This document shows positions 136 to 18,900 of a stretch of DNA of 23,373 bases, piece after piece. Location of the stretch: positions 1 through 23,373 of IMG/VR virus record IMGVR_UViG_3300032050_000839, one strand, 5' to 3'. The position numbers and the translations under genes were made by a program. Source of the DNA: a virus. The notes below the pieces were generated by a model. The model was not told the DNA's origin. It did no database searches and worked only from the letters and a program-made list of their open reading frames with translations. Every line of letters begins with the position of its first letter. Position 1 is the first letter of the stretch.

Positions 136-999
136 CTAGCGTACCGCAACGGGGGCACTCCAGTTGTGCGGCAGTCTGTCCAGTGTTTTTAGGCTAGTGC
201 TGTACGTACGCATCTTTACTTTTTTAGTGCCACTTTCAGCGTGTTTTATGTATTTATAGTACTCGCACAGGCTGTGCTCAAGTGCCCTGGCGTCGTATGC
301 GACCGGACTGCCGGCTACCATCGGTCTGCTGTCTAGAGGTAACCCAGCGTCCACTGTCTGCAGCAACGTGTCCCAGTCGCCCTGTCCCGTGGCGGCACAG
401 TGTGCTAGGCCTCGAACTGCTCCAGGCCCCAGCGAGGGCATAAACGCGCCGTGAAACGGTCCTCCTTGCCACACCAAGTCCATTACTAGCTGGTCCACTA
501 AAAAGTCACCAAATGAGTATATCTCCCTAAGCAACTTCCATGCCCTAGTAGTTGCACCGGCCTCCAAGGCTTGCGCCGTCTTCGTGGCGACCTCACGTAA
601 ATCACACAGTGCCTCGCACACCTTTTTTAGGTCTGGACAGCGTACATAAGCACCCGTGAAGTTTTTTTCTCTGGCTGATAAAAACGCGTACAGTGCTTTT
701 GCGTCTGCTCTAGCCGTTGGCCAGTTATTAAAATGGGCCAGTATCGCCTCGTGCGTGTCAATTCGATTAAACGCTCTATAGCAGATAGTGTCCGCCACTA
801 GCTTAGCGCTGTTCTCGCTATTAACCTGTACGTTATTGAAAAGGTAGACAGTGTGTCTGTCGAGCTCTCGCCAAAGGTTTGTGTAGTGGTACTGCCTGAG
901 TTCGGCGGTATTTTTGCTCAAGCTTTCTACCGGCAGACCGTACGAGCGCTCTAGCCATAAAGCGTGCCGTGCCTGACAGAACTCTACTAGTGTTAGCAC
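136..999 (-). CDS. Amino acid:DNA transferase / 5-hmdU DNA kinase helical-domain superfamily protein (aGPT-Pplase-like)
   Basis: This 287-residue protein has the signature series of the alpha-glutamyl/putrescinyl-thymine pyrophosphorylase superfamily: NLWRELDRHT (41-50), YRAFNRIDTHE (74-84), FTGAY (114-118), FGDFLVDQLVMDL (163-175), GPGAVRGL (191-198) and EHSLCEYYKY (241-250). Known members act on phage DNA after replication. Some phosphorylate 5-hydroxymethyluracil, others join an amino acid to the activated base. There is no P-loop, so a transferase-type (ADDT-like) role is more likely than a fused kinase. The start is GTG at 999, with AGGAG 9 bases upstream, overlapping the WhiB stop. The family match is by remembered motif pattern and I consider it good. 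The substrate here (thymine- or cytosine-derived) is unknown. Its partners may be the kinase, TS homologue and glycosyltransferase-like genes upstream. Confidence 0.75.
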   Translation of the reverse strand: MLTLVEFCQARHALWLERSYGLPVESLSKNTAELRQYHYTNLWRELDRHTVYLFNNVQVNSENSAKLVADTICYRAFNRIDTHEAILAHFNNWPTARADAKALYAFLSAREKNFTGAYVRCPDLKKVCEALCDLREVATKTAQALEAGATTRAWKLLREIYSFGDFLVDQLVMDLVWQGGPFHGAFMPSLGPGAVRGLAHCAATGQGDWDTLLQTVDAGLPLDSRPMVAGSPVAYDARALEHSLCEYYKYIKHAESGTKKVKMRTYSTSLKTLDRLPHNWSAPVAVR

Positions 1000-1265
1000 G
1001 CTTTTTTACTCCTGGTCTTTTTTCTTTTGTAGGCACGTCGTTCTACTACAGACATTCCGCCCCAGATGCCGTGGGCTTCGTTGGTTTCTATCGCCCATTC
1101 CAAACATTCTTCTTTATGTTTGCAGGCACTGCACAGCTTTTTTGCTAGTCTCCAATTTTCTGGGTGCACTATCTCTCTGTCACTTGTATCGTCCGCAAGG
1201 GGAAAGTAGGCTGAAGTGCCTATCTCTGCGCACAGTGGCTGCTCGAATGTCCACGGTGTTTTCAT
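993..1265 (-). CDS. WhiB-family [4Fe-4S] transcriptional regulator
   Basis: The 90-residue protein has the four WhiB cysteines at C12, C45, C48 and C54 (C-x2-C-x5-C). They are followed by the family turn HGIWGGMS (65-72), then ERR and a Lys/Arg-rich tail that contacts DNA. WhiB proteins bind an O2/NO-sensitive cluster and usually work with the housekeeping sigma factor. They are essentially restricted to Actinobacteria and their phages, so this gene is the strongest host clue in the window. I chose the ATG at 1265 because GGAG lies 9 bases upstream; an in-frame GTG at 1295 would add ten residues without better support. The stop overlaps the start of the next gene. It may control phage genes or host WhiB targets. 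Confidence 0.95.
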   Translation of the reverse strand: MKTPWTFEQPLCAEIGTSAYFPLADDTSDREIVHPENWRLAKKLCSACKHKEECLEWAIETNEAHGIWGGMSVVERRAYKRKKTRSKKAC

Positions 1266-1309
1266 GTGTGTCTTCTCCGTCCTGCATGTAACCACGCAAA
1301 AGTACTGTC

Positions 1310-2524: not shown

Positions 2525-3562
2525 TTATACCACTCCTGTCAGTTGATTTTGTAGACTTAGTGCAAGTGTAATTTGAGCAGTGCTTTCTAACGTGCTAGGC
2601 ACCGCTTCCGTGTACGCGACTTTTTGTCTAATAGCCATTTCGTACCGCTCTAGCTTGTCCATGCTCTCTACGGTGGACGGTAGCGTTACCCAGTCTGATC
2701 CGAGCCCAGCGGAGTGTCGCCAGTCGGTAAGCGCCGGTGTGTTTACTGCAAGACTCTGCGCTAGTTTGTTTGTCCACCAAGGAACGCCGTTTCTGTACGT
2801 GCTAACCAACAAACCAATTGCGCCCGCAATTGTGGCTAATGTTTCCAAGTCGCTACTTTTTGCGTGTCTCTTTACTGGCACGACTGGGTAGTGCAGCTGC
2901 TTTTGTACTTCGTCAACCCAGTTGGTGCCTAGGGCAGTTGCGCACCACCAACTGGTTCCAAATTTGGCTGCAGTTGGTTTGACGGTATCTCGCAGAATAA
3001 ATGCGTCTAGGCAGATAGAAAAAAGACTGCTGTCCGAAAGCGCTGGAATCTGCGAAACTAGGTGCTCATCTTCTGACCATGGCAGCGCCGCGTACATAGT
3101 TCTAGCCCAAGAGTCACTCAATAAACTACGTACTGTTTTTACTAAACGTTCATAATGCGCTGGCTCTGCTGCTTTGGCGTGCTCGTATCTACTCTTGTAA
3201 AAAGATTTTACTAGGCTTTCTGGAGAACGGTCTACTGTTTTTAGGCTAGTCCAAATCTTGTATGGCTCGGGTGCGTCAATTAGAAGTGTAAGCCTAGGAT
3301 CGTTCTTAAGAATGTCTAGAGACCCCAACGCTCCGTAGGCTCTGTGCGCAGAAGTACTTGTGAGAGGGGCTATACCTACCACTACACTGTCGTACTTATC
3401 AAAACTTTTTTCTGTCCAGTCAAGAGAAGGAGGAAGCTGCTCTACGTTGTAGCCATGCTCAGTTAATGCAGTGTACATCAAACTACTGAAGCCCTGTGTT
3501 TTTGCGTTTAATTTTCTAGACGTGTGCTGAGCAGTCATCCCTGTTAAAAGTATGTTTTTCAT
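2525..3562 (-). CDS. Glycosyltransferase-like (GT-B type) phage protein
   Basis: The 345-residue protein opens with a Rossmann-type strand and turn (MKNILLTGMTAQHTSRK), then YDSVVVGIAPLTS (57-69) and LTLLIDAPEP (91-100), an N-terminal domain as in actinophage GT-B-like proteins. The C-terminal half has GLLVSTYRNGVPWW, then TPALTDWRHSAGLGSDW and a closing helix, the arrangement expected of a nucleotide-sugar-binding domain. I recognise it as the type usually annotated glycosyltransferase in actinophages, on pattern rather than on catalytic residues. Possible acceptors are modified bases in phage DNA, virion proteins or host envelope. The neighbouring base-modification genes make DNA worth testing. 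It overlaps the upstream gene as ATGA. Confidence 0.55.
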   Translation of the reverse strand: MKNILLTGMTAQHTSRKLNAKTQGFSSLMYTALTEHGYNVEQLPPSLDWTEKSFDKYDSVVVGIAPLTSTSAHRAYGALGSLDILKNDPRLTLLIDAPEPYKIWTSLKTVDRSPESLVKSFYKSRYEHAKAAEPAHYERLVKTVRSLLSDSWARTMYAALPWSEDEHLVSQIPALSDSSLFSICLDAFILRDTVKPTAAKFGTSWWCATALGTNWVDEVQKQLHYPVVPVKRHAKSSDLETLATIAGAIGLLVSTYRNGVPWWTNKLAQSLAVNTPALTDWRHSAGLGSDWVTLPSTVESMDKLERYEMAIRQKVAYTEAVPSTLESTAQITLALSLQNQLTGVV

Positions 3563-8014: not shown

Positions 8015-8515
8015 CTAGCCCTCCAATAGAGCTCGGGGGACCCAGCCGGCTTTAACCAGCCTCAACAGACCGTGCCGTATGGCGTCCAGCGCGTGGCCAT
8101 CTCCCCCTACGTGCCAGTAGCCAAGCTTCTTTAGCGCTTGGTTCGGGAACATGTTTTTAGCGTCTGACGGTGCCTGCATTGCCAACCCAGGTAGATAGTG
8201 ACCTACTCTGTTAAGATGCTTTTCCATGTCTTTCAGCGCTTGTTTTAGAATGCCTATCTGCTCTAGGCTGTATGGCGCTTGGCTGTTTTTTACCGTCTGA
8301 GCGTTTATGGTAAACCGCTCACACGCAACCAGTAGCCTGTCGGCACCTCCTTGTACGCTTACGTATATCATCCCTCGAATGGTGTCCGCGTACGTGTCAA
8401 AGTCAGTTTCGTAGGAATGTAGAAGCGTCGGAACTCCATTCTGATACTGGAATAGAGCTATACCACTCAGCTTGCCTGGGTCTACAGCCAGCACAAACGT
8501 GTTTAGTTCTGTCAT
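8015..8515 (-). CDS. RuvC-like Holliday junction resolvase / RNase H-fold nuclease
   Basis: A 166-residue protein with the RNase H-fold start VLAVDPGKLSGIALF (8-22), where D12 is the first acidic ligand. CERF (65-68) supplies E66 at the second position, and a C-terminal GDGHALDAIRHGL (138-150) supplies D144 with H141. This is the usual phage RuvC-like pattern; such enzymes cut Holliday junctions and branched replication intermediates before packaging. I start at ATG 8515, where the codon overlaps the polymerase stop as ATGA and GGGGAG lies about 10 bases upstream. A start at 8599 would be buried in the polymerase gene. It sits directly after the polymerase gene, as in many phage replication operons. 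Confidence 0.8.
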   Translation of the reverse strand: MTELNTFVLAVDPGKLSGIALFQYQNGVPTLLHSYETDFDTYADTIRGMIYVSVQGGADRLLVACERFTINAQTVKNSQAPYSLEQIGILKQALKDMEKHLNRVGHYLPGLAMQAPSDAKNMFPNQALKKLGYWHVGGDGHALDAIRHGLLRLVKAGWVPRALLEG

Positions 8516-10335
8516 TTGTATTTGTCTCCCCATGTCTCTAGCGGTCCTTCTACACCGGCAGTTAGTGGAACTTCCCAGTTTTCTCTGGTAGTCATGCACT
8601 CACGAACGGTCTCCATGACATCTCTAGCGTCTTCTCTACGTGCCTGCAGCACAATTTCGTCATGCACCGGCACAATTAAATTTTCTGTAAGGTCGGCTTG
8701 GTCTAGCTTTATTAAGTTTTGTTTGAAGACCTCCGCGGCTCCGCCCTGTATTAAGTAGTTTACCAAAGTGTACACTCGGTCTTCGTCACAAGGCAATCTT
8801 CGTCCGGTCCACGTGTACACGTAGCCCTGGCCTTCGTTTTTTAATCTGCGCATACCAGCATCCTCTATTTTTCTTTGAAACATGGCCATGCCCGGGTAGC
8901 GCTGGTCAAATGCGTCTGAGACCGCCCGCATCTGCGCCTCCGGCACTCCCGCAGTCAAGGCTTGTTTTGGAACTCCAGCGCCGTACAGTCTTCCGTATAC
9001 AGTTCCTTTTATCAAGTTTCTGCGCTTGTCGGTTCTCATCATGCTGGGGTCTTTGTATATCTCTCTGCCTATTTCTGTAAAAGGATCCGAGCCGGTAGCA
9101 TCTGCACGATTGAACAGAGTTATCAAGTTTGAGTCCGTAGACAGGGAAGCAAACATTCTAAACTCGACTTGGTCAAGATCTGATGTGATAATTACATGGT
9201 CTTCGTCTTTAGGTATAAACGCAGTTCTGACTACTTCGTCGCCTTTAGGCAGTGTCTGCAAAGCTGGGGCCTGAATAGACATTCTAGAAGTTCTAGCTCC
9301 GAGAGTCTTTACTGACGGGTGCACAAATCCGTTTACGTTGTCGTTTAGAAAGTTTGCAAAGTATGTAGTAGCTAGTTTGTCTGCCTTGCGCTGCTTAAGC
9401 ACCAAAGAAGCTAACTCTTTTACCTGCTCATTTCCCTCTATTTGCAGCAGCTTTAGCTGGTCTTTAGTGCACGCCTTTTGTCCGCTCGGCGTCAACTCTG
9501 TAATCTCTGCGCCTAAACTTTCAAAGAGCCTAGTCAGCTGTATGTTGCTGGTGATAGAAACGCCGTTGTATCTGTTGTCTGCCCAGTCTTTTACTTGCGT
9601 AGAGTAGTGTATTAACTCGTCGTACTTTTTGCGTGAGTACTCTAAGTCAATTTTTGCGCCGTTTATCTCCATGCGCGTAACTATCTTTCTTGCCGCCATC
9701 TCTAGTTCGTATGGCCTATGGTACTTTCCATCTGGTCCACAGTCTTTGTAGAACTGGTGCCACAGCCGCATAGTAAGCACGCAGTCGAGTGCGCCGTACG
9801 CCCAGTACGGTTGAAAGTTGGTAGGCACTGTTCCCCAGGTCCAGCCGTTCTTGGCCATCTCTACGTCTAAGTTTTCTTGCAGCGCAACGGCCTTGCCGTC
9901 TATGTGTAGTGCCGCAAGACGCTTGAGTGCGCCAGAGCCAAGCGGGTCAATGATGTGCGCCATGATCATGGTGTCGTGCGCTTGGTGCCAGGGCAGCTTC
10001 CAACGAGACTGTACGTCAAACCACCGCGCCTCAAAAGCGATGTTGTGAAATACTATTGGTCCATCGTAGTTTTCCATTGCTTGATAGAAAACGCCGCCCC
10101 ACTCGTTCCAAGGTATCGCCCAGGCCTGTTCGGCGTCTCCAACCTGCACGAGCCGCAGCTGCCCGTGCCAAGGCGACAGCGCATGTGCACGCACGCCGCC
10201 AGGACGTTCTCCGGTTTCAGTGTCCACCGCAATAGCGTTTAGCGGCCTGCGTTGGCTGATCCAGTGAATAAACTCAGAAGCTTTTTCAGCAGTGTCCACC
10301 AAGTGCAGCTTAACTTCGTTCATGGAAATTGTCAT
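8512..10335 (-). CDS. Family A DNA polymerase with 3'-5' exonuclease domain
   Basis: The 607-residue protein has a DnaQ-like proofreading domain, with D38/E40 in AVDTETG, HNIAFEARWFD (97-107) and Y180-x3-D184. The polymerase domain has RTSRMSIQAPALQTLP (348-363), motif A SDLDQVEFR (385-393, D386), motif B RRNLIKGTVYGRLYG (438-452, K443) and motif C PVHDEIV (556-562, D559). It lacks the 5'-3' nuclease domain of bacterial Pol I, as usual for phage replicative copies. The residue equivalent to E. coli Phe762 is Tyr (Y447), as in T7. ATG 10335 overlaps the dCMP deaminase stop as ATGA. An in-frame ATG at 10323 is an alternative, and neither has a strong ribosome binding site, so coupling is likely. 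If modified dNTPs are made, this enzyme must accept them. Confidence 0.95.
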   Translation of the reverse strand: MTISMNEVKLHLVDTAEKASEFIHWISQRRPLNAIAVDTETGERPGGVRAHALSPWHGQLRLVQVGDAEQAWAIPWNEWGGVFYQAMENYDGPIVFHNIAFEARWFDVQSRWKLPWHQAHDTMIMAHIIDPLGSGALKRLAALHIDGKAVALQENLDVEMAKNGWTWGTVPTNFQPYWAYGALDCVLTMRLWHQFYKDCGPDGKYHRPYELEMAARKIVTRMEINGAKIDLEYSRKKYDELIHYSTQVKDWADNRYNGVSITSNIQLTRLFESLGAEITELTPSGQKACTKDQLKLLQIEGNEQVKELASLVLKQRKADKLATTYFANFLNDNVNGFVHPSVKTLGARTSRMSIQAPALQTLPKGDEVVRTAFIPKDEDHVIITSDLDQVEFRMFASLSTDSNLITLFNRADATGSDPFTEIGREIYKDPSMMRTDKRRNLIKGTVYGRLYGAGVPKQALTAGVPEAQMRAVSDAFDQRYPGMAMFQRKIEDAGMRRLKNEGQGYVYTWTGRRLPCDEDRVYTLVNYLIQGGAAEVFKQNLIKLDQADLTENLIVPVHDEIVLQARREDARDVMETVRECMTTRENWEVPLTAGVEGPLETWGDKYK

Positions 10336-10799
10336 ACTGTCTGCACTACTTCTATGCTGCACTTGCGTAGATAAGCAATAACGTCGTCTGGGTTTCTGTG
10401 CGAGTCGTTTTTGACTTTAAGCAGCACTACTCTGGTTAACCCAGAGTTTGACACAGCTTTTGCACAGTTCATGCAGATAGAGCTGTTTACGTACAGAGTT
10501 CCGCCCTCTACTCTAGACCGGTCTACGTACATCAGGGCGTTCATCTCGGCGTGTATAGCCGGACACTCGTCGTAGCTCTTGTCGAGCGGCGCCTCTCCTC
10601 TAGCTCGTTTGCACCAGTTTATGCAGTCCGAGTTTTCTGGCCAAGAAGCGGCGGGACCGTTGTATCCAGTAGACGCAATTCGACCGTTTAGCGAAACTAT
10701 GACCGCGCCAATTCGAGCACGTGAGCAACGACTTCGACGCCCGATAGCTACAGCTACGCTCATCCAAGTGTCGTCCCACGACGGTCTAGGTGTGTTCAT
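10332..10799 (-). CDS. dCMP deaminase
   Basis: A 155-residue zinc enzyme of the cytidine/deoxycytidylate deaminase fold. The zinc site is H83-A-E85 in PAIHAEMNAL together with C109-x2-C112 in SICMNCAKA. ARIGAVIVSLNGRIASTGYNG (28-48) matches the substrate-side strand and loop of dCMP deaminases. It converts dCMP to dUMP, the precursor of dTMP. I chose ATG 10799 (MNTPRPSWDDTW), 11 bases after the TS-homologue stop; upstream in-frame codons would give a basic extension unlike the family. It lies between the TS homologue and the polymerase gene. In T4 a dCMP deaminase coexists with dCMP hydroxymethylase, so its presence does not settle which nucleotide the TS homologue uses. Confidence 0.9.
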   Translation of the reverse strand: MNTPRPSWDDTWMSVAVAIGRRSRCSRARIGAVIVSLNGRIASTGYNGPAASWPENSDCINWCKRARGEAPLDKSYDECPAIHAEMNALMYVDRSRVEGGTLYVNSSICMNCAKAVSNSGLTRVVLLKVKNDSHRNPDDVIAYLRKCSIEVVQTV

Positions 10800-10810
10800 T
10801 TGCGTGTTGT

Positions 10811-11692
10811 TTACTTTACTTCTGGTTCTGCGGGTGCGGCTTTGGCATTTTTCTCTATCGCCGAGATCATGGCATCTGCATACCACTTTTCATTTTCTGC
10901 TAGTCTGTCTAGCACGCTTGGATTTATCGCTGCTTGCAGACATAGAAGTGCTGACGACTCTACTTCTCTCCAGTTTCTGCCCTTGATTGCTGGAATAGCC
11001 TCCGGCTGTTTTTCTGGTGCATGCAGCTTTTCTGCCTTCTCAAAATGCTGCTCGTATAGATGCAGCGATCCAACGTGGTGTGCGTAGACGCCTGGCTCTA
11101 TGTCTAGCACTGAAGCGATAGCAATTTGTACTCTTGTAAACTGGAACCAGTCGTACGCTGCGCCAAGCCAAGCGTCGTTTGACCGCATGTACACGCTCAT
11201 GTTTAGCTTGCCGTCTCTGATACGAAACTGGTGCAGCACCGTGCATGGATAGTCTTTTTTTCCCTTTAGCAGGTCTAGGTTTGGGTTCCACAGTGTAACT
11301 ACAGCCTGCCTGGTGTCTTTGTCGGCGATTAGACGCTCGATTACGTGGTCGTACTGCCCCCTTGTTCTTACGCCGTACGGTCCGTGAAAGGTGTTGTTTG
11401 GTTCTAAGAACTGTGCAAAGTTTGGACTGACTGCTACGGTCAACGCAGGGTGCGTTATGCCAGACAACAACTGGCACGCCTCAACCGCGCCTATGCCTGC
11501 TACTGCGCCGCGACCCGTTCCAAGCGGCAGCGTGTTTTGTACGTCGTTGATGTACACCACTGCGTCTTCTAGCTCAACGGTGTTCATTCCTCTTGGCGAT
11601 GTCTTTTTTCCGTTTTTTAGGACCCACTGAACCATTTCTGTGTATCCAGTTACTCCGTCTTCTACCTCGATCGCATTTACGCGAGAACCCAT
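10811..11692 (-). CDS. Thymidylate synthase homologue, predicted dCMP hydroxymethylase type
   Basis: The 293-residue protein keeps the TS catalytic core. Cys150 is in YPCTVLHQF, followed by RDGKLNMSVYMRSND (159-173), WLGAAYDWFQF (175-185) and HHVGSLHLYEQH (205-216). R128 in DTRQAVV matches a phosphate-binding Arg. The key point is D181, in the position of E. coli Asn177, the residue that recognises dUMP. Asp at this site is the hallmark of T4 dCMP hydroxymethylase, so hydroxymethylation of dCMP (using methylenetetrahydrofolate) is my preferred call. A TS of altered specificity remains possible, and dUMP hydroxymethylase is less likely because SPO1-type enzymes are expected to keep Asn. ATG 11692 has a perfect AAAGGAG 5 bases upstream and overlaps the kinase gene by 16 bases. 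The last 20 residues are Ala/Glu/Lys-rich. Confidence 0.8.
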   Translation of the reverse strand: MGSRVNAIEVEDGVTGYTEMVQWVLKNGKKTSPRGMNTVELEDAVVYINDVQNTLPLGTGRGAVAGIGAVEACQLLSGITHPALTVAVSPNFAQFLEPNNTFHGPYGVRTRGQYDHVIERLIADKDTRQAVVTLWNPNLDLLKGKKDYPCTVLHQFRIRDGKLNMSVYMRSNDAWLGAAYDWFQFTRVQIAIASVLDIEPGVYAHHVGSLHLYEQHFEKAEKLHAPEKQPEAIPAIKGRNWREVESSALLCLQAAINPSVLDRLAENEKWYADAMISAIEKNAKAAPAEPEVK

Positions 11693-12711
11693 GATGTCTC
11701 CTTTGCCCAGTTAGTACTTCTGTTTTTTGGTGTTTCTCCACGCGCTAGAGCGGCTATTGCTGCTCCGTACTCTTGCTGTTGTCCCGCGTAGAATCTTTTT
11801 ATGTGCTGAGGGTGCGAAGTAACAGCAGTTAGTTCTACTTCTGCTTTTTTACATATTGCTTCGGCGTTTCTTCCAAGTGCAATTACTGTCGGAGAACCGA
11901 GCGTACTCCATGACGAGTGCAGGACTTCTGGAGATAGCTCGCTGCCGTTTAGTATTCCAGCAGTAGGCCAAAAGTTGTCTTCTAAGGCACCCAGTAAAAA
12001 GTCACCGCTGTTTCCGTCAACTGGTATAAATGGCAACATTGTTGCTTTTCCGTACCACCTGTTTTGATTACGCTGGTCTCCAATCAACAAAGTTTTTGGT
12101 TTAGGCGCACCGATGTAAAACGGCATGTTTGCTAAATGCTTTACATCGTTTTCTACTTGAAAAGCGGTATCAACAATCATGTCAGCAAGTGCGGCTAGTT
12201 CGTTTAGATCGTCCGGGTTTGGCTGCAGCTTTCCAGTAAACACGGCTGATTTAGTTACTGTTTTTTCGTGTAAGTCGATGAGCGCGCCTAGCTCGTCTGA
12301 CTTTACATAGTCATCGCCGCGGCTGTCTAGTCGTCTGGTAACTACGTCTAGTGGTTGATACAGCCAAAACAGTGCGGCCCCGCGGGACATTAAAAACATC
12401 TCTGTCCATCTCCACCCAGCCGCGCCTAAAAGACCGTATCCGTCGCTGTCGCTGCTCGGTCGCTTTAGCGGAGCATAGGTGGCTTCTCCCCAGTGCCATC
12501 TATCGGCAACTATCAAGGAGTCAGGGTGCGCAATGTTTTCTATGGACAGTACATAGTCTTTTAGCGCCCAGCGTCTGTTGAGTTCCTCTGGCTTACTTTT
12601 GTGAAAAACATGCACTGGACTTCCAGTGTCTAAATTGCACAAAAGTAGTTTTATTTCTTCTACCAATGTGCTCTTCCCAGAGGCGTCTGTGCCCTCAATT
12701 ATGATAAACAA
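11677..12711 (-). CDS. P-loop (thymidylate-kinase-like) nucleotide kinase fused to a uracil-DNA-glycosylase-like domain
   Basis: Residues 1-185 form a dNMP/thymidylate-kinase-like domain: P-loop GTDASGKST (7-15), DRWHWGEATYAPL (70-82) as the base-binding DR motif, and a RRLDSRGDDY lid region (126-135). Residues 200-325 look like a second domain of the uracil-DNA glycosylase superfamily: KTLLIGDQ (206-212), an SG-loop (235-236), VIALGRNAEAI (276-286) and TSHPQHIKRF (298-307). The usual GEAPG catalytic loop is altered to IGDQRNQ, so the domain may bind bases without cutting. The kinase would charge dTMP or hydroxymethyl-dNMP, the product of the next gene. The start is TTG at 12711 with AAGGA 6 bases upstream and an in-frame stop just before it. 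The kinase call is strong. The C-terminal fold is an inference from weak motifs. Confidence 0.75.
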   Translation of the reverse strand: MFIIIEGTDASGKSTLVEEIKLLLCNLDTGSPVHVFHKSKPEELNRRWALKDYVLSIENIAHPDSLIVADRWHWGEATYAPLKRPSSDSDGYGLLGAAGWRWTEMFLMSRGAALFWLYQPLDVVTRRLDSRGDDYVKSDELGALIDLHEKTVTKSAVFTGKLQPNPDDLNELAALADMIVDTAFQVENDVKHLANMPFYIGAPKPKTLLIGDQRNQNRWYGKATMLPFIPVDGNSGDFLLGALEDNFWPTAGILNGSELSPEVLHSSWSTLGSPTVIALGRNAEAICKKAEVELTAVTSHPQHIKRFYAGQQQEYGAAIAALARGETPKNRSTNWAKETSWVLA

Positions 12712-13785: not shown

Positions 13786-13953
13786 TTACATTCCTCTCTC
13801 GTTTATCATGGTTTTTACTTCATCTAGTTTGGCTTTAAGCGCTAGCACCTGCGAGTACTCTAGCTTTGGCTCGCCCAACGCCATTCGAACGGGACGCAGT
13901 AGCTGATCGCTGTCTAAATACTTGTACGTGTAGACACCGTCGTTTTCACTCAT
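13786..13953 (-). CDS. 55-residue hypothetical protein
   Basis: This gene is short and easily missed. It starts at ATG 13953, reads MSENDGVYTYKYLDSDQLLR, then PVRMALGEPKLEYSQVLALK, and ends KTMINERGM before TAA. The start overlaps the oxygenase stop as TAATG, and its 3' end carries the ribosome binding site for the next gene, so it fills what would otherwise be a 170-base gap exactly. Four of its eight leucines use CTA, as elsewhere in the accessory and replication genes. It looks like a small helical protein of unknown role. Confidence 0.7.
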   Translation of the reverse strand: MSENDGVYTYKYLDSDQLLRPVRMALGEPKLEYSQVLALKAKLDEVKTMINERGM

Positions 13954-14528
13954 TACATCGTTCCTATCTGTTTGCCAAGCTTTTCTTTCGCCCTTATGGT
14001 GTCTAGATAGCTAGGTCCATGTGTATAGTACCAGTGATCTGGCTCTACGAAGTGAAAAAAGACCATAGCTACTTGATTAGTGGCGGGCGAGGGGAACTGC
14101 TCTCGCCAGTGCCATTGATCGTTGCCAAAGTACGCAAGTGACTGATTTGGTCTGAGCATGTACGGTCGGTCAGCCACCCAGAGCGCCCAGGGCTCATTTT
14201 GGTAGATGCACATGTCTATAGTGTACGTACAGGCGTTATTGTCCCGGTGCTTAAACAGGTTTGCTCTCTCTGTTTCATAGTGTGCAAATAGTGCGTAAGA
14301 AGGTAGAAGAGTGTCACTGTCAAAAGTCTCTCTGGCCAGCGGCAGCACCGATTCAAATGCCTGCATAAGGAGCGGCTCGGCCTGCGCACTCAAACAAAAA
14401 CGTCCAAATCCCGGGTCCCAAGACATCGAGCCGGTACCGCGTTTCTTGAGCACGTCTACTAGACTTTTGTGCATGCCTATGTCTAGTGTTTCCTCGATTA
14501 TTACCGGGTCTGGTCTGCGTCTGCCCAT
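13953..14528 (-). CDS. Predicted 2-oxoglutarate/Fe(II) oxygenase
   Basis: A 191-residue protein with a likely double-stranded beta-helix core. The motif LFKHRDNNACTYTIDMCIYQ (91-110) contains H94-x-D96, the first two iron ligands. NQSLAYFGNDQWHWRE (128-143) provides the distal H140 with R142 close by, followed by QVAMVFFHFV. This matches small phage and bacterial oxygenases that hydroxylate proteins or small molecules with 2-oxoglutarate and O2. I start at ATG 14528, which overlaps the previous oxygenase stop as TAATG; a longer frame to 14579 would overlap that gene heavily. It is a different subfamily from its neighbour. The substrate is unknown; the adhesin or modified DNA bases are both possible. 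Confidence 0.7.
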   Translation of the reverse strand: MGRRRPDPVIIEETLDIGMHKSLVDVLKKRGTGSMSWDPGFGRFCLSAQAEPLLMQAFESVLPLARETFDSDTLLPSYALFAHYETERANLFKHRDNNACTYTIDMCIYQNEPWALWVADRPYMLRPNQSLAYFGNDQWHWREQFPSPATNQVAMVFFHFVEPDHWYYTHGPSYLDTIRAKEKLGKQIGTM

Positions 14529-15166
14529 TAGTGAAACCACCCAACCACACAGTAACGCAGGCCACTTATGACCGGCCACACTTTGTGTGTGTACACGTAC
14601 GTCGAGGGAAAAAACACGACTTGGTTTGTTTCTGGTTTTATTTTTAGATTGAACTGATCAAATTCTATCTCGCCACCCTCGAAGTCTGAATTTAGGTAGA
14701 AACTCATCGACACACGACGTTGAAACATTTTGGCTGCGTCAGCGTGTCTGTCAAAGTGCTGCCCCGTGCCGTACTTTAGAAGCTGCCAGCCCTCGTTGTC
14801 TAGATCGCCACCTATTCCAAACTGCCTAGAGTAGGCGTCTAGCAGCGGCAGTAGACTCGCGTCTAGCAGGTCGCTTAGTACCGCCAGTACACCACCCGTG
14901 GCCTTTAGCTCCGGCGTTTTTGCGAAAGCCGGTATAGACACCGTCTCGACGTCGCGAATTGACCTAGTGAGAGCACCGGCTCTGTTTTGAATGCCACTGC
15001 CCTGCTGGCCTGGTTGCCAGATCAGTTGACGCATCTCTGTAAGACCGTCTAAATCGCGTATAAGCCCGGCGGGATCCCGCATAACGTTGGAGTAGCTGAC
15101 TATGCCCGGAGCCAATAGTTTTCCTTCTATTTGACTCGGGTTAGCGCCTACTGTCACTGTGTTCAC
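14528..15166 (-). CDS. Prolyl-4-hydroxylase-like 2-oxoglutarate/Fe(II) oxygenase
   Basis: The 212-residue protein has the full P4H-type core: LLKYGTGQHFDRHADA (129-144) with iron ligands H141 and D143, MSFYLNSDFEGGEIEF (154-169), FFPSTYVYTH (185-194) with distal H194, and PVISGLRYCVVGWF (198-211) with R204 for 2-oxoglutarate. Family members hydroxylate Pro, Lys or Asn side chains, and some phage copies may act on other substrates. The start is GTG 15166 with GGAG 7 bases upstream, overlapping the previous stop as GTGA. It is cotranscribed with, and downstream of, an adhesin full of Val-Pro linkers, which makes proline hydroxylation of that adhesin an attractive inference. The fold call is firm and the substrate call is not. 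Confidence 0.88.
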   Translation of the reverse strand: MNTVTVGANPSQIEGKLLAPGIVSYSNVMRDPAGLIRDLDGLTEMRQLIWQPGQQGSGIQNRAGALTRSIRDVETVSIPAFAKTPELKATGGVLAVLSDLLDASLLPLLDAYSRQFGIGGDLDNEGWQLLKYGTGQHFDRHADAAKMFQRRVSMSFYLNSDFEGGEIEFDQFNLKIKPETNQVVFFPSTYVYTHKVWPVISGLRYCVVGWFH

Positions 15167-15900: not shown

Positions 15901-18900
15901 TTACATTTTTAGGTTGTGCGTGAGCATGCCCACCGTAAATAGCACGTCGTCTTCCTCCGTGTCAAAAATGTAGGCTATGGCCGGAAGGTCTATGACTGTC
16001 TTTTCCATCACTGGAGTCCACTCCAGGTCAGCAACAGTGTCTCCGCCCCTACGCAGTACTAAATCACCGACTTGAACCGAGCCAGCGCTAAGAAATGAAT
16101 AGGTGGTGTGTCGCCTGACTAGTATCGGGTGTTCTGGTGTAAATCGGTCTCCGTTTATAGAAACCTGTATCATGCTGGCCCTAGTCACGCGTACTTGTTG
16201 CACAACTGTCGTCAGCATTTGTACCGGCGTTAAACTCTCGCTGGACCACAGTGGCAGTGAGTAGACGGTCTCATCCGTGGTAAGTTCTGCAAATCTCACG
16301 GAGTAAACGACGTCACCTCCACGTAGGTGCTGCGCCTCCACCGGGCCGTTAGGTGTGGCGACTAGCGTAGAACCGACTATACAGCCACCGCCACCACTAG
16401 GTGGGTTGTAGTTGTCCTGCTGCTCCTGTGGAGCCGACGGCGGCACCGGACTCGACTGTGGAGGTGCCGGAGTCGGAGCTGGTTCACCACCACTTTCGTA
16501 AATCGCGGGAAGGCTCGGGTAGTCGATGCTAAACGGCGGGAAAGTCGGCAGGGTGAACGGCGGGAACGGCTGTGGGTTGTCCGGGTAGTAGTACGGGAAC
16601 GCGGCCGGTGCGTCGCTCGGCGGGGGCGGAAGCTGCGGTGTAGTCGGGGTAAACGGCTCAGGTACGAAGAAGTCAATTGGGATAGGCGGAATTGTCGGAG
16701 TAACCGGAGTCGGCGTTGGAACATTGCCGCCGCTGCAGTTGCAGCACCGCTGCCCGGCCGGAATGGCGTATTGGCTCGAGCCGCCTATGTCCGTGCAGCC
16801 GAGTTCGGCGCACGTGTAGTTAACTGGGTTAGTGATGGTCCCCGGGCAGTCAGGCAGGCCGCCAGTCGGCACAGGCACTGTTGTCGGCACCGGCACGCTC
16901 GGGGCACAGCCCAGGTCGTCGTACCGGTTGGCACAGCCGTCCGGTGTCCAGCACAGGTACCAGTTGCGAGTACCGCTTGGGCAGTTACTGTCGCTGGTGG
17001 TGTAGTTGTAGCTTTGCGTAGGGCTGCACGTGTTGCAGTTTGCTGCTACTGGCACCGGCACCGGTGTCGGCACAGGCACTGTTGTCGGCACGGGGACTGG
17101 CACTGTTCCCGGACACGGCGACGGAAAGGCGGGGTGCTGCAGGCACTGTGTGCTGTAGCAGGTGCCGCTCGCAGACTGGTTGGTAGCTGACGAGTACGTG
17201 CTGCAGCCGCCGCCGCAGTCGACCGTCTTGCAGTTCCACGGCTGGCCTACGATCGGGACTGGCACGGGGCCGTCTCCGTCGGCCACACAAGCAGTAACGT
17301 AGTCGGCACAGCCCTGCGGCGTGATGCAGTACGAGTTTCTTCCCGGTCTGGCGTACCCGAGGTCGTTGTTTGTGCACGGTTGGTCTATCGCATAGCCGTA
17401 CGGACAGCACGCGGCCGTAAACTGTGGCGGGTTGCAGCACTGCGAGGCGACCGGCACCGGAACGGGGATCGGCGTCGGCACGGGAACCGGAACGGCGGTG
17501 GCCACGCAAGGAGTGTAGTAGTTGTCGCAGCCGTCCGGTGTGATGCAGTAGGAGTACTTTCCCGGCTGGCCAAGCGTGGTTGTACAATTGACGTTGAATT
17601 GAAAACCGTACGGACAGCACTCTGCGGAGATCTCAGGCGGGTTGCAGCACTGTGCGTTAACTGGCACCGGTATCGGCACCGGCGTCGGCACGGGGACCGG
17701 CACGTTCTCGCACGGCGCAGGGTAGCCGTACAGCGCGAACTCCGCCGCAGGCCTGCAGATGGTGCTGTAGCACGTGCCGCTGCCGGTCGTGTTTGTCGGG
17801 CTGTAATACATGTTGCAGCCGCCGCCGCAGTCGCGGGTGGTGCAGTAAAAGCCGGTCGTGGCAACTGGGATCGGGATCGGGACGGGCACGGGCACGCTGG
17901 CGCACGCCGGCTGCGCAGCGGCCTCTATCGGAGGGTACGTACCTGCAGTGCACACGATCAGCTCTCGCCAGAAAGAGCCTGAGAGGTACGAGTCTGAGGA
18001 CTGGTTTTCGGTGTAGCAGCCATAGAAAGAAGGCGACGACTGGTAGGTGCCGCTCTGGGTGTCACAGATAGACTTTGCACAGCAGAAGTTAGCCGGGCAG
18101 CAGTACTTGTCGTTGTTTATGTACGTGACGACGTACCCAGCAGAGCAGTCGGTGTAGAAGCCAACCGGCCCGTAGCCGCCCGCGCAGGCCTGGGCGCAGC
18201 CAGCAATCTCCGGCCCCTGTGCCGGATACGGTGGGTAGACTGCGCTGTTTAACTGTGAGCTGGTGTACAGAGCCGAGTTGCAGGAGCAGCTGGTGGAGGT
18301 GCACTGTGTCGTCGAGTAGCCGGCCTCACTGCAGCTTCTCTGTGGCCCCGGCCAGCCTATCTCTGTGCCGATCGAGACCTGTTGAAACTGATAGTTTCTG
18401 GTGGTGTAGCTGCCGCTAAAGCCGTTGCAGACGCTGCAGACGCACGAGTAGTACCAGTAGCGTGTCTCGCTGAAGTCGTACGGTCCTATGTAGTTTTCCG
18501 CGGCGACCCACTCTGACCACTCTCCGGTGGAGCCGACGCGCGCTCTGACCTCCAGCGCGCTGTACTTGCCGTTGTACGACTGGCCGCTGATTGTCTTCTC
18601 TTGACCGGTGCCGTCGGACGTCCAGTTTCCTATGGTGCCTACGTACCAACGGTACTCCGCCTGTATGTTGGTGTTCGGCTCCCAGACGCCCGGGTAGCCG
18701 ACGATCACCATCGGCGCGAGGTTTATGGCGCCGGTCTGTACTAGGATGCTGGGAGGAACTGTGTTTATAGGCGCGGCGCCGCCGATTGTAACTAAGCCGG
18801 TGAAGGCGGTGCTAGTTCTACAGGTTCCAGACTTGTGGGCGACTCCGGCGTAGTAGGTCTGCCCCTGAGTAAGCGGCCCGACGTCTACGGTAGCCTGCTG

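Follow-up and report, generated by a model that had tools for sequence, protein, structure and literature searches.

Which base of its DNA does a phage decorate when it encodes both a protein of a family named for the thymine pathway and a hydroxymethylase of the cytosine type? The question is raised by the window analysed here, a viral sequence record 23,373 bases long. The first-pass annotation had placed the product of 136-999 in the aGPT-Pplase/ADDT superfamily of thymine hypermodification and noted a cytosine-type thymidylate synthase (TS) homologue in the same record. It suggested either that this TS tolerates dUMP or that the 136-999 product adds an amino acid or a sugar to hydroxymethylcytosine. 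In phage T4, the 5-hydroxymethylcytosine (5hmC) pathway consists of a dCMP hydroxymethylase, a dNMP kinase and a beta-glucosyltransferase. A tested 5-hydroxymethyluracil (5-hmU) DNA kinase does not phosphorylate 5hmC in DNA (PMC6457204), and a cytosine version would therefore be a new specificity.

Identity and Fold of the HMUDK_hel Protein

The 287-residue open reading frame at 136-999 is found only on the minus strand, the plus strand across the interval being full of stops. Its product matches Pfam family PF18723, HMUDK_hel ("5-hmdU DNA kinase, helical domain"), with an E-value of 1.8e-28 and 100.1 bits, about four times the cut-off of 25. The match covers residues 3-255 of 287 and profile positions 6-276 of 281, and the product also matches phrog_2396 (E 2.6e-29). 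PF18723 matched none of 14 control genomes, and PF18724 (ADDT) was absent from the Pfam matches of the product at E<=1. Ten residues are invariant in an alignment of 55 sequences that includes the window protein, and all of them are present in it (R11, R44, D47, F166, D174, G193, G197, C245, E246, and K249). Five other contigs carry the frame intact, with 89-100% identity. In the window the start of the frame is overlapped by seven bases by the end of a WhiB-like gene (993-1295, minus strand).

The predicted structure (pLDDT 87.8, from 50 sequences) is mostly alpha-helical. Its top VIA-align match is PUGT of phage PaMx11 (gp46, 8z2m), aligned over 217 residues with an rmsd of 3.7, 10% identity and a Z of 11.6, a score that may be high by chance for helical models. 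Helix-hairpin-helix (HhH) DNA glycosylases and queuosine-salvage DUF2419 proteins follow at Z 8.5 and below; a common fold is no proof of function. Foldseek returned nothing significant with the model. PDB sequence searches gave no informative match, the family profile retrieving designed repeat proteins and chance matches. PaMx11 gp46 is the 5-phosphomethyl-dU glycinyltransferase. PUGT/ADDT is thus the nearest solved fold, from which the window protein differs in its 10% identity and in having no PF18724 match. Judged by its sequence, the product is a member of HMUDK_hel, a fold relative of ADDT and not an ADDT itself. The superfamily assignment of the first-pass annotation therefore holds for the HMUDK_hel match and the PUGT-like fold and fails for ADDT by sequence. 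The protein is proposed to be a 5hmC-handling DNA modification protein with an HhH-glycosylase/PUGT-like fold and an inferred reaction.

Comparison With 5-hmU DNA Kinase Cassettes

A near full-length HMUDK_hel and its invariant residues are common to the window and to the 5-hmU DNA kinase system of Pseudomonas phage M6 and, by gene content, Ab18. In M6 and Ab18 the HMUDK_hel gene follows a P-loop kinase gene, and in Ab18 an ADDT gene (PF18724) lies three genes before the kinase. The M6-like phage SN1 is described with a single cassette of aGPT-Pplase1, a nucleotide kinase, a radical-SAM enzyme, a PLP enzyme and aGPT-Pplase2 (PMC9476957). The window lineage differs in having neither the M6/Ab18-type kinase nor, judged from its sister phage record G001 (117,837 bp), an ADDT, and in a hydroxymethylase with cytosine-type Asp177, not dUMP-type Asn177. 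Neither the kinase model nor an ORF search found an Ab18-type kinase in the window, in G001 or in the pieces of a further record, G003, that were searched. PF18751 (Ploopntkinase3) was found in neither G001 nor G003, and no Walker-A kinase frame lies beside HMUDK_hel in the window or in loci L004-L008. The ADDT search matched Ab18 and gave no match in G001 or G003. The P-loop kinases adjacent to HMUDK_hel in M6, Ab18, and the Microbacterium phage Golden are publicly annotated as "terminase small subunit" (L222:4426-4989, L003:11056-11625, and L208:1353-1958).

A Predicted Cytosine-Type Hydroxymethylase

The TS homologue is encoded on the minus strand at 10811-11692 (PF00303, E 1.9e-25), and it has the catalytic Cys146 together with Thr147 and Asp177 (E. 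coli numbering). Its best PDB match is CMP 5-hydroxymethylase 5b6d (E 1.4e-19), with 5jnh also matched, and the Asp pairs with an Asp in this alignment. Among the best 60 of 127 PDB matches, CMP 5-hydroxymethylase outranks every thymidylate synthase and T4 dCMP hydroxymethylase does not appear. All of the best 80 of 108 close relatives have Cys146/Thr147/Asp177; in 78 of these 80 a window-type kinase, and in 78 a deaminase, is found at the same locus. In the MetaGPA study, positions 177 and 147 are the two most discriminating in TS, and position 177 is mostly Asp in modified contigs, which was taken to indicate modified cytosine (PMC8670742). On the PDB ranking, the Cys/Thr/Asp relatives and MetaGPA position 177, we read the 10811-11692 product as a predicted dCMP 5-hydroxymethylase; it may instead methylate dCMP.

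That the Asp-type TS uses dUMP and feeds an ordinary thymine pathway was only ever a suggestion of the first-pass annotation, and it is very unlikely. Asp177 with Thr147 occurs in every one of those 80 relatives, the nearest solved enzyme among the 60 PDB matches is a cytosine hydroxymethylase, and Asp177 marks the modified-cytosine contigs of MetaGPA (PMC8670742). A dUMP-type hydroxymethylase elsewhere in the genome would also have explained a thymine pathway. None was found in G001, which, like the records G002 and G003, has a single PF00303 match, the 10811-11692 orthologue. Because the window, G001, G002 and G003 show a single TS match each, of the cytosine type, and an HMUDK_hel match is present, the mismatch pointed out in the first-pass annotation is real.

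Glycosyltransferase-Like Protein and Nucleotide Enzymes of the Window

The product of 2525-3562 (minus strand) has a T4 beta-glucosyltransferase (BGT)-type fold and no sequence-profile match to that enzyme. Pfam (no family at E<=1) and PHROG searches with it gave no match, and a profile search of the PDB with its family gave no glycosyltransferase. The AlphaFold model (pLDDT 92.0, 29 sequences) aligned best by VIA-align to T4 beta-glucosyltransferase 1qkj (Z 17.4, 300 residues, rmsd 4.0), with SenB tied at Z 16.7 and T4 alpha-glucosyltransferase at 14.8. The six Foldseek matches at E<=0.001 are all glycosyltransferases, and Asp96 is invariant in both alignments. The Actinomycetia phage DSL-LC01 (OQ999401) has two relatives of this protein, one of them annotated as a glycosyltransferase (24.7% identity, E 5e-14). 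Relatives in Gordonia phages lie near glycosyltransferase, MazG or dUTPase, and C5-cytosine DNA methylase genes. The family is present in 47 of the 80 Asp-type TS loci (best 80 of 108), with two copies in 40; many of the remaining loci do not extend far enough to show it. We consider 2525-3562 the strongest candidate for the sugar step and propose it as a 5hmC DNA glycosyltransferase. The earlier idea that the 136-999 product adds the sugar is the less plausible one, and we rejected HMUDK_hel as the sugar transferase because this separate gene exists.

Four further minus-strand genes may belong to the same pathway. A thymidylate-kinase-like P-loop kinase (11677-12711, from PHROG and homologues) is a proposed hm-dCMP kinase. 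The dCMP deaminase (10332-10886) has a longest frame that overlaps the TS frame. A dUTPase_2/MazG-like nucleotide pyrophosphohydrolase (2046-2522, Pfam and PHROG) is a proposed pool cleaner, and a family A DNA polymerase (8512-10362, Pfam) would incorporate modified dCTP. The C-terminal stretch of about 150 residues in the kinase has no Pfam match, and the DSL-LC01 homologue is similar in length (44% identity). The window thus resembles T4 in having an Asp-type hydroxymethylase, a nucleotide kinase, a deaminase and a BGT-like fold; it differs in its extra HMUDK_hel and in a hydroxymethylase nearer to CMP 5-hydroxymethylase. DSL-LC01 shares with the window a syntenic kinase-TS-deaminase-PolA-helicase-nuclease-RecA segment, a TS of 59% identity and a homologous glycosyltransferase. 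It differs in lacking HMUDK_hel and in having a second glycosyltransferase of the 2525-3562 family, a UDP-galactopyranose mutase and a C5-cytosine methylase.

Pfam scans of 20 window ORFs gave no match to any FAD, PLP or radical-SAM family, and a tRNA scan of the window found no tRNA. Searches of 7 and 13 records for Tet_JBP (the TET route) gave no match, and no positive control matched either. Just downstream of a gene for a proline-rich giant tail protein, 14528-15166 encodes a 2OG-Fe(II) oxygenase (PF13640). The adjoining 13953-14579, for which Pfam gives nothing at E<=1, is oxygenase-like by reading; the pair (13953-15166) possibly encodes prolyl hydroxylases of the tail repeats. At 15901-16400 lies the C-terminal end of a 1743-residue tail protein (CIVGSTLVATPNG...THN), which is Hint (intein/hedgehog-type)-like by eye only.

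Co-occurrence of HMUDK_hel and TS Types

The pairing of HMUDK_hel with either type of TS was surveyed in the best 80 of at least 309 HMUDK_hel relatives, seven phage loci and the window. Of 72 TS homologues, 61 are Asn147/Asn177, 10 are Thr147/Asp177 and one is unreadable (truncated sequence). The ten Asp-type loci represent nine genomes (L049 copies Neferthena), namely the window and Microbacterium EA-type phages; the combination that the first-pass annotation singled out therefore recurs. None of the ten shows an Ab18-type kinase or an ADDT at its locus. A thymidylate-kinase-like gene is found in nine of these ten and in none of the 61 Asn-type loci, with a search model seeded from two Asp-type phages. 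Within flanks of up to 10 kb, the 61 Asn-type loci contain 17 Ab18-type kinases and 7 ADDT genes, and so HMUDK_hel does not always travel with a kinase. The other 44 (L037, L040, L048, and L102 among them) have HMUDK_hel without an Ab18-type kinase. Some Asn-type loci bear a radical-SAM gene or a glycosyltransferase, the latter being a TAGT in L059 and of a group-1 type in L102. Since some kinase-less loci carry such genes instead, HMUDK_hel may function independently of the Ab18-type kinase. In 19 prokaryote loci with HMUDK_hel, 12 have a TS homologue, 11 of them Asn-type by eye and one unreadable. HMUDK_hel-like proteins are also encoded in haloarchaeal genomes (L224, L229, L231, and L233), and none of these four loci showed a TS homologue.

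In a 55-row tree of HMUDK_hel, the Asp-type label needs two changes, and the Asp-type rows fall outside a cluster of 47 rows (support 81) to which every Asn-type row belongs; long branches meet in this tree, which leaves the number of Asp-type origins unsure. Residue 170 is Glu in 38 of 38 Asn-type rows and Gln in 7 of 7 Asp-type rows. It was rejected as a uracil/cytosine switch because Gln is also found in Rhizobium phage TM26, which has an Asn-type TS, and in Klebsiella phage PWKp5 (TS unread). Residue 52 was rejected as well: Tyr occurs in the seven Asp-type rows and Golden, and also in L035, L064, and a Nodularia phage, three for which no TS is known. L064, a virus record of 176,803 bases, has Tyr52 and Gln170 as in the cytosine-type group and no PF00303 match anywhere in the record.

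A Second Cytosine Lineage in Microbacterium Phages

The TS of Neferthena matches T4 dCMP hydroxymethylase alone in the PDB (E 2.1e-28) and is 27% identical to the window TS over 115 residues. As the former is T4-like and the latter resembles CMP 5-hydroxymethylase, HMUDK_hel has met two different cytosine hydroxymethylases. Counting RefSeq duplicates, 191 Microbacterium records have a Neferthena-type TS (E<=1e-20) and 42 have HMUDK_hel (E<=1e-5). Of ten records searched, L064 gave no TS match and each of the other nine gave one, which in Hamlet and G017 falls below the family cut-off. In the Microbacterium phages that were read, HMUDK_hel lies a few mostly small genes from the TS, glycosyltransferase and kinase genes. 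TAGT (PF20691), to which the T-even enzyme that glucosylates glucosyl-5hmC belongs (PMC13216743), was found in eight of nine Microbacterium-type records searched, one below the cut-off. Golden gave no TAGT match, and its whole-record annotation shows no recognised glycosyltransferase. Hamlet has TS, TAGT and kinase, and no HMUDK_hel was found in a search of its whole record.

Golden (Kojivirus), alone among 16 records, has a PF18751 P-loop kinase. The gene overlaps the start of HMUDK_hel by eight bases, an arrangement that resembles the one-base overlap in Ab18, and the TS of Golden is Asp-type. The Ab18-type kinase model does not find this kinase. The same kinase is encoded in 13 Microbacterium records (78-100% identity) and has more distant relatives in mycobacteriophages; its family therefore extends beyond the phages that carry HMUDK_hel. 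From sequence, the Golden kinase together with HMUDK_hel is a candidate 5hmC DNA kinase.

T-even deaminases accept hm-dCMP. One hydroxymethylase might therefore serve two modified bases, the deaminase turning some hm-dCMP to hm-dUMP, with HMUDK_hel acting on hmU and the glycosyltransferase on 5hmC. The dCMP deaminase gene adjoins the TS gene, and dUMP-type hydroxymethylases stand beside most HMUDK_hel relatives (the 61 of 72 TS neighbours in the survey). The deaminase is nevertheless found in 78 of the best 80 of 108 Asp-type TS loci even though HMUDK_hel is absent from that group at large. The sister record has neither the Ab18-type kinase nor an ADDT, and a deaminase profile seeded from DSL-LC01 (one sequence, not exhaustive) finds none in Neferthena or Golden. 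We regard two modified bases as improbable.

HMUDK_hel as an Accessory Gene

Fifty other Asp-type TS records were searched whole for PF18723 and none matched; 30 of the 80, including the lineage of the window, lie outside that search, and the same search did match in five of six records elsewhere. With DSL-LC01 the count is none in 51. HMUDK_hel is therefore not needed for the cytosine pathway. In G001, an HMUDK_hel 89% identical to that of the window (16975-17940) sits between a MazG gene and the orthologue of the WhiB gene of DSL-LC01. In the matching MazG-WhiB interval DSL-LC01 carries a C5-cytosine methylase, and Gordonia phages have such a methylase between MazG/dUTPase and WhiB genes; a search of G001 for a C5 methylase found none. 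Given this interval comparison and its absence from the other Asp-type TS records, HMUDK_hel is an accessory gene that a single lineage has gained, perhaps through an exchange.

An accessory gene need not act on the DNA of its own phage. The main rival reading is a defence role, in which HMUDK_hel attacks the hydroxymethylated DNA of competitors or protects against a glycosylase or Type IV enzyme of the host. Besides its accessory status, its fold resembles DNA glycosylases, and one study names a 5-hydroxymethyluracil kinase and a thymidylate synthase as newly validated defence domains, with aGPT-Pplase on its predicted list (PMC13092281). The window gene belongs, however, to a replication/modification segment, with the MazG and glycosyltransferase genes roughly 1 to 1.5 kb away, and in the Microbacterium phages that were read it is close to TS, glycosyltransferase and kinase. 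We therefore consider defence unlikely. Recent horizontal arrival as a passenger with no working role and no kinase partner is more doubtful still. Among Asp-type TS phages of the window type, HMUDK_hel was seen nowhere but in the window and in relatives 89-100% identical to it, and no partner kinase was found. Against this, the ten family-invariant positions are kept, the frame is intact in the five other contigs, and HMUDK_hel has been retained beside a cytosine hydroxymethylase in a second lineage too.

Proposed Pathway

The reading we favour, by a little over even chances, is that of an actinobacterial phage with a T4-like pathway of 5hmC plus sugar to which HMUDK_hel was added as an accessory acting on cytosine. 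Beyond the computed families, residues, folds and neighbourhoods, we infer the order of the steps, cytosine as the HMUDK_hel substrate and the HMUDK_hel reaction. The 10811-11692 enzyme would make hm-dCMP from dCMP and the 11677-12711 kinase would phosphorylate it, while the dCMP deaminase and the MazG/dUTPase-like enzyme would hold normal dCTP low. The family A polymerase would polymerise the modified dCTP into DNA, and the 2525-3562 glycosyltransferase would add a sugar after replication. HMUDK_hel would then bind DNA, flip out a hydroxymethylated (or glycosylated) cytosine and take part in a further change at 5-CH2OH, most simply phosphorylation or displacement, as in the pathways of its relatives on 5-hmU.

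A broader and more tentative proposal, which we hold to be less likely than not, is that the hydroxymethyl-pyrimidine DNA kinase pathway has a cytosine branch. In this branch, HMUDK_hel and a P-loop kinase (in Kojivirus) or another partner (in the window phage) would activate 5hmC in finished DNA, as 5-phosphomethylcytosine or through a change to the glycoside, and would thereby open cytosine to thymine-type tailoring.

Significance

In the open-access literature, subscription papers aside, no paper was found on HMUDK_hel with a cytosine hydroxymethylase; Iyer 2013 may have predicted such links. The presence of HMUDK_hel, named for the thymine pathway, beside two cytosine hydroxymethylases predicts a decoration of cytosine for which we found no described enzyme. 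The cultured phages Golden and Koji, which have HMUDK_hel and a kinase, Neferthena, which has HMUDK_hel and TAGT, and Hamlet, a control free of HMUDK_hel, open virion nucleosides to direct measurement. If the reading is true, the family would supply a candidate 5hmC-specific DNA kinase, an activity absent from the tested 5-hmU kinase (PMC6457204).
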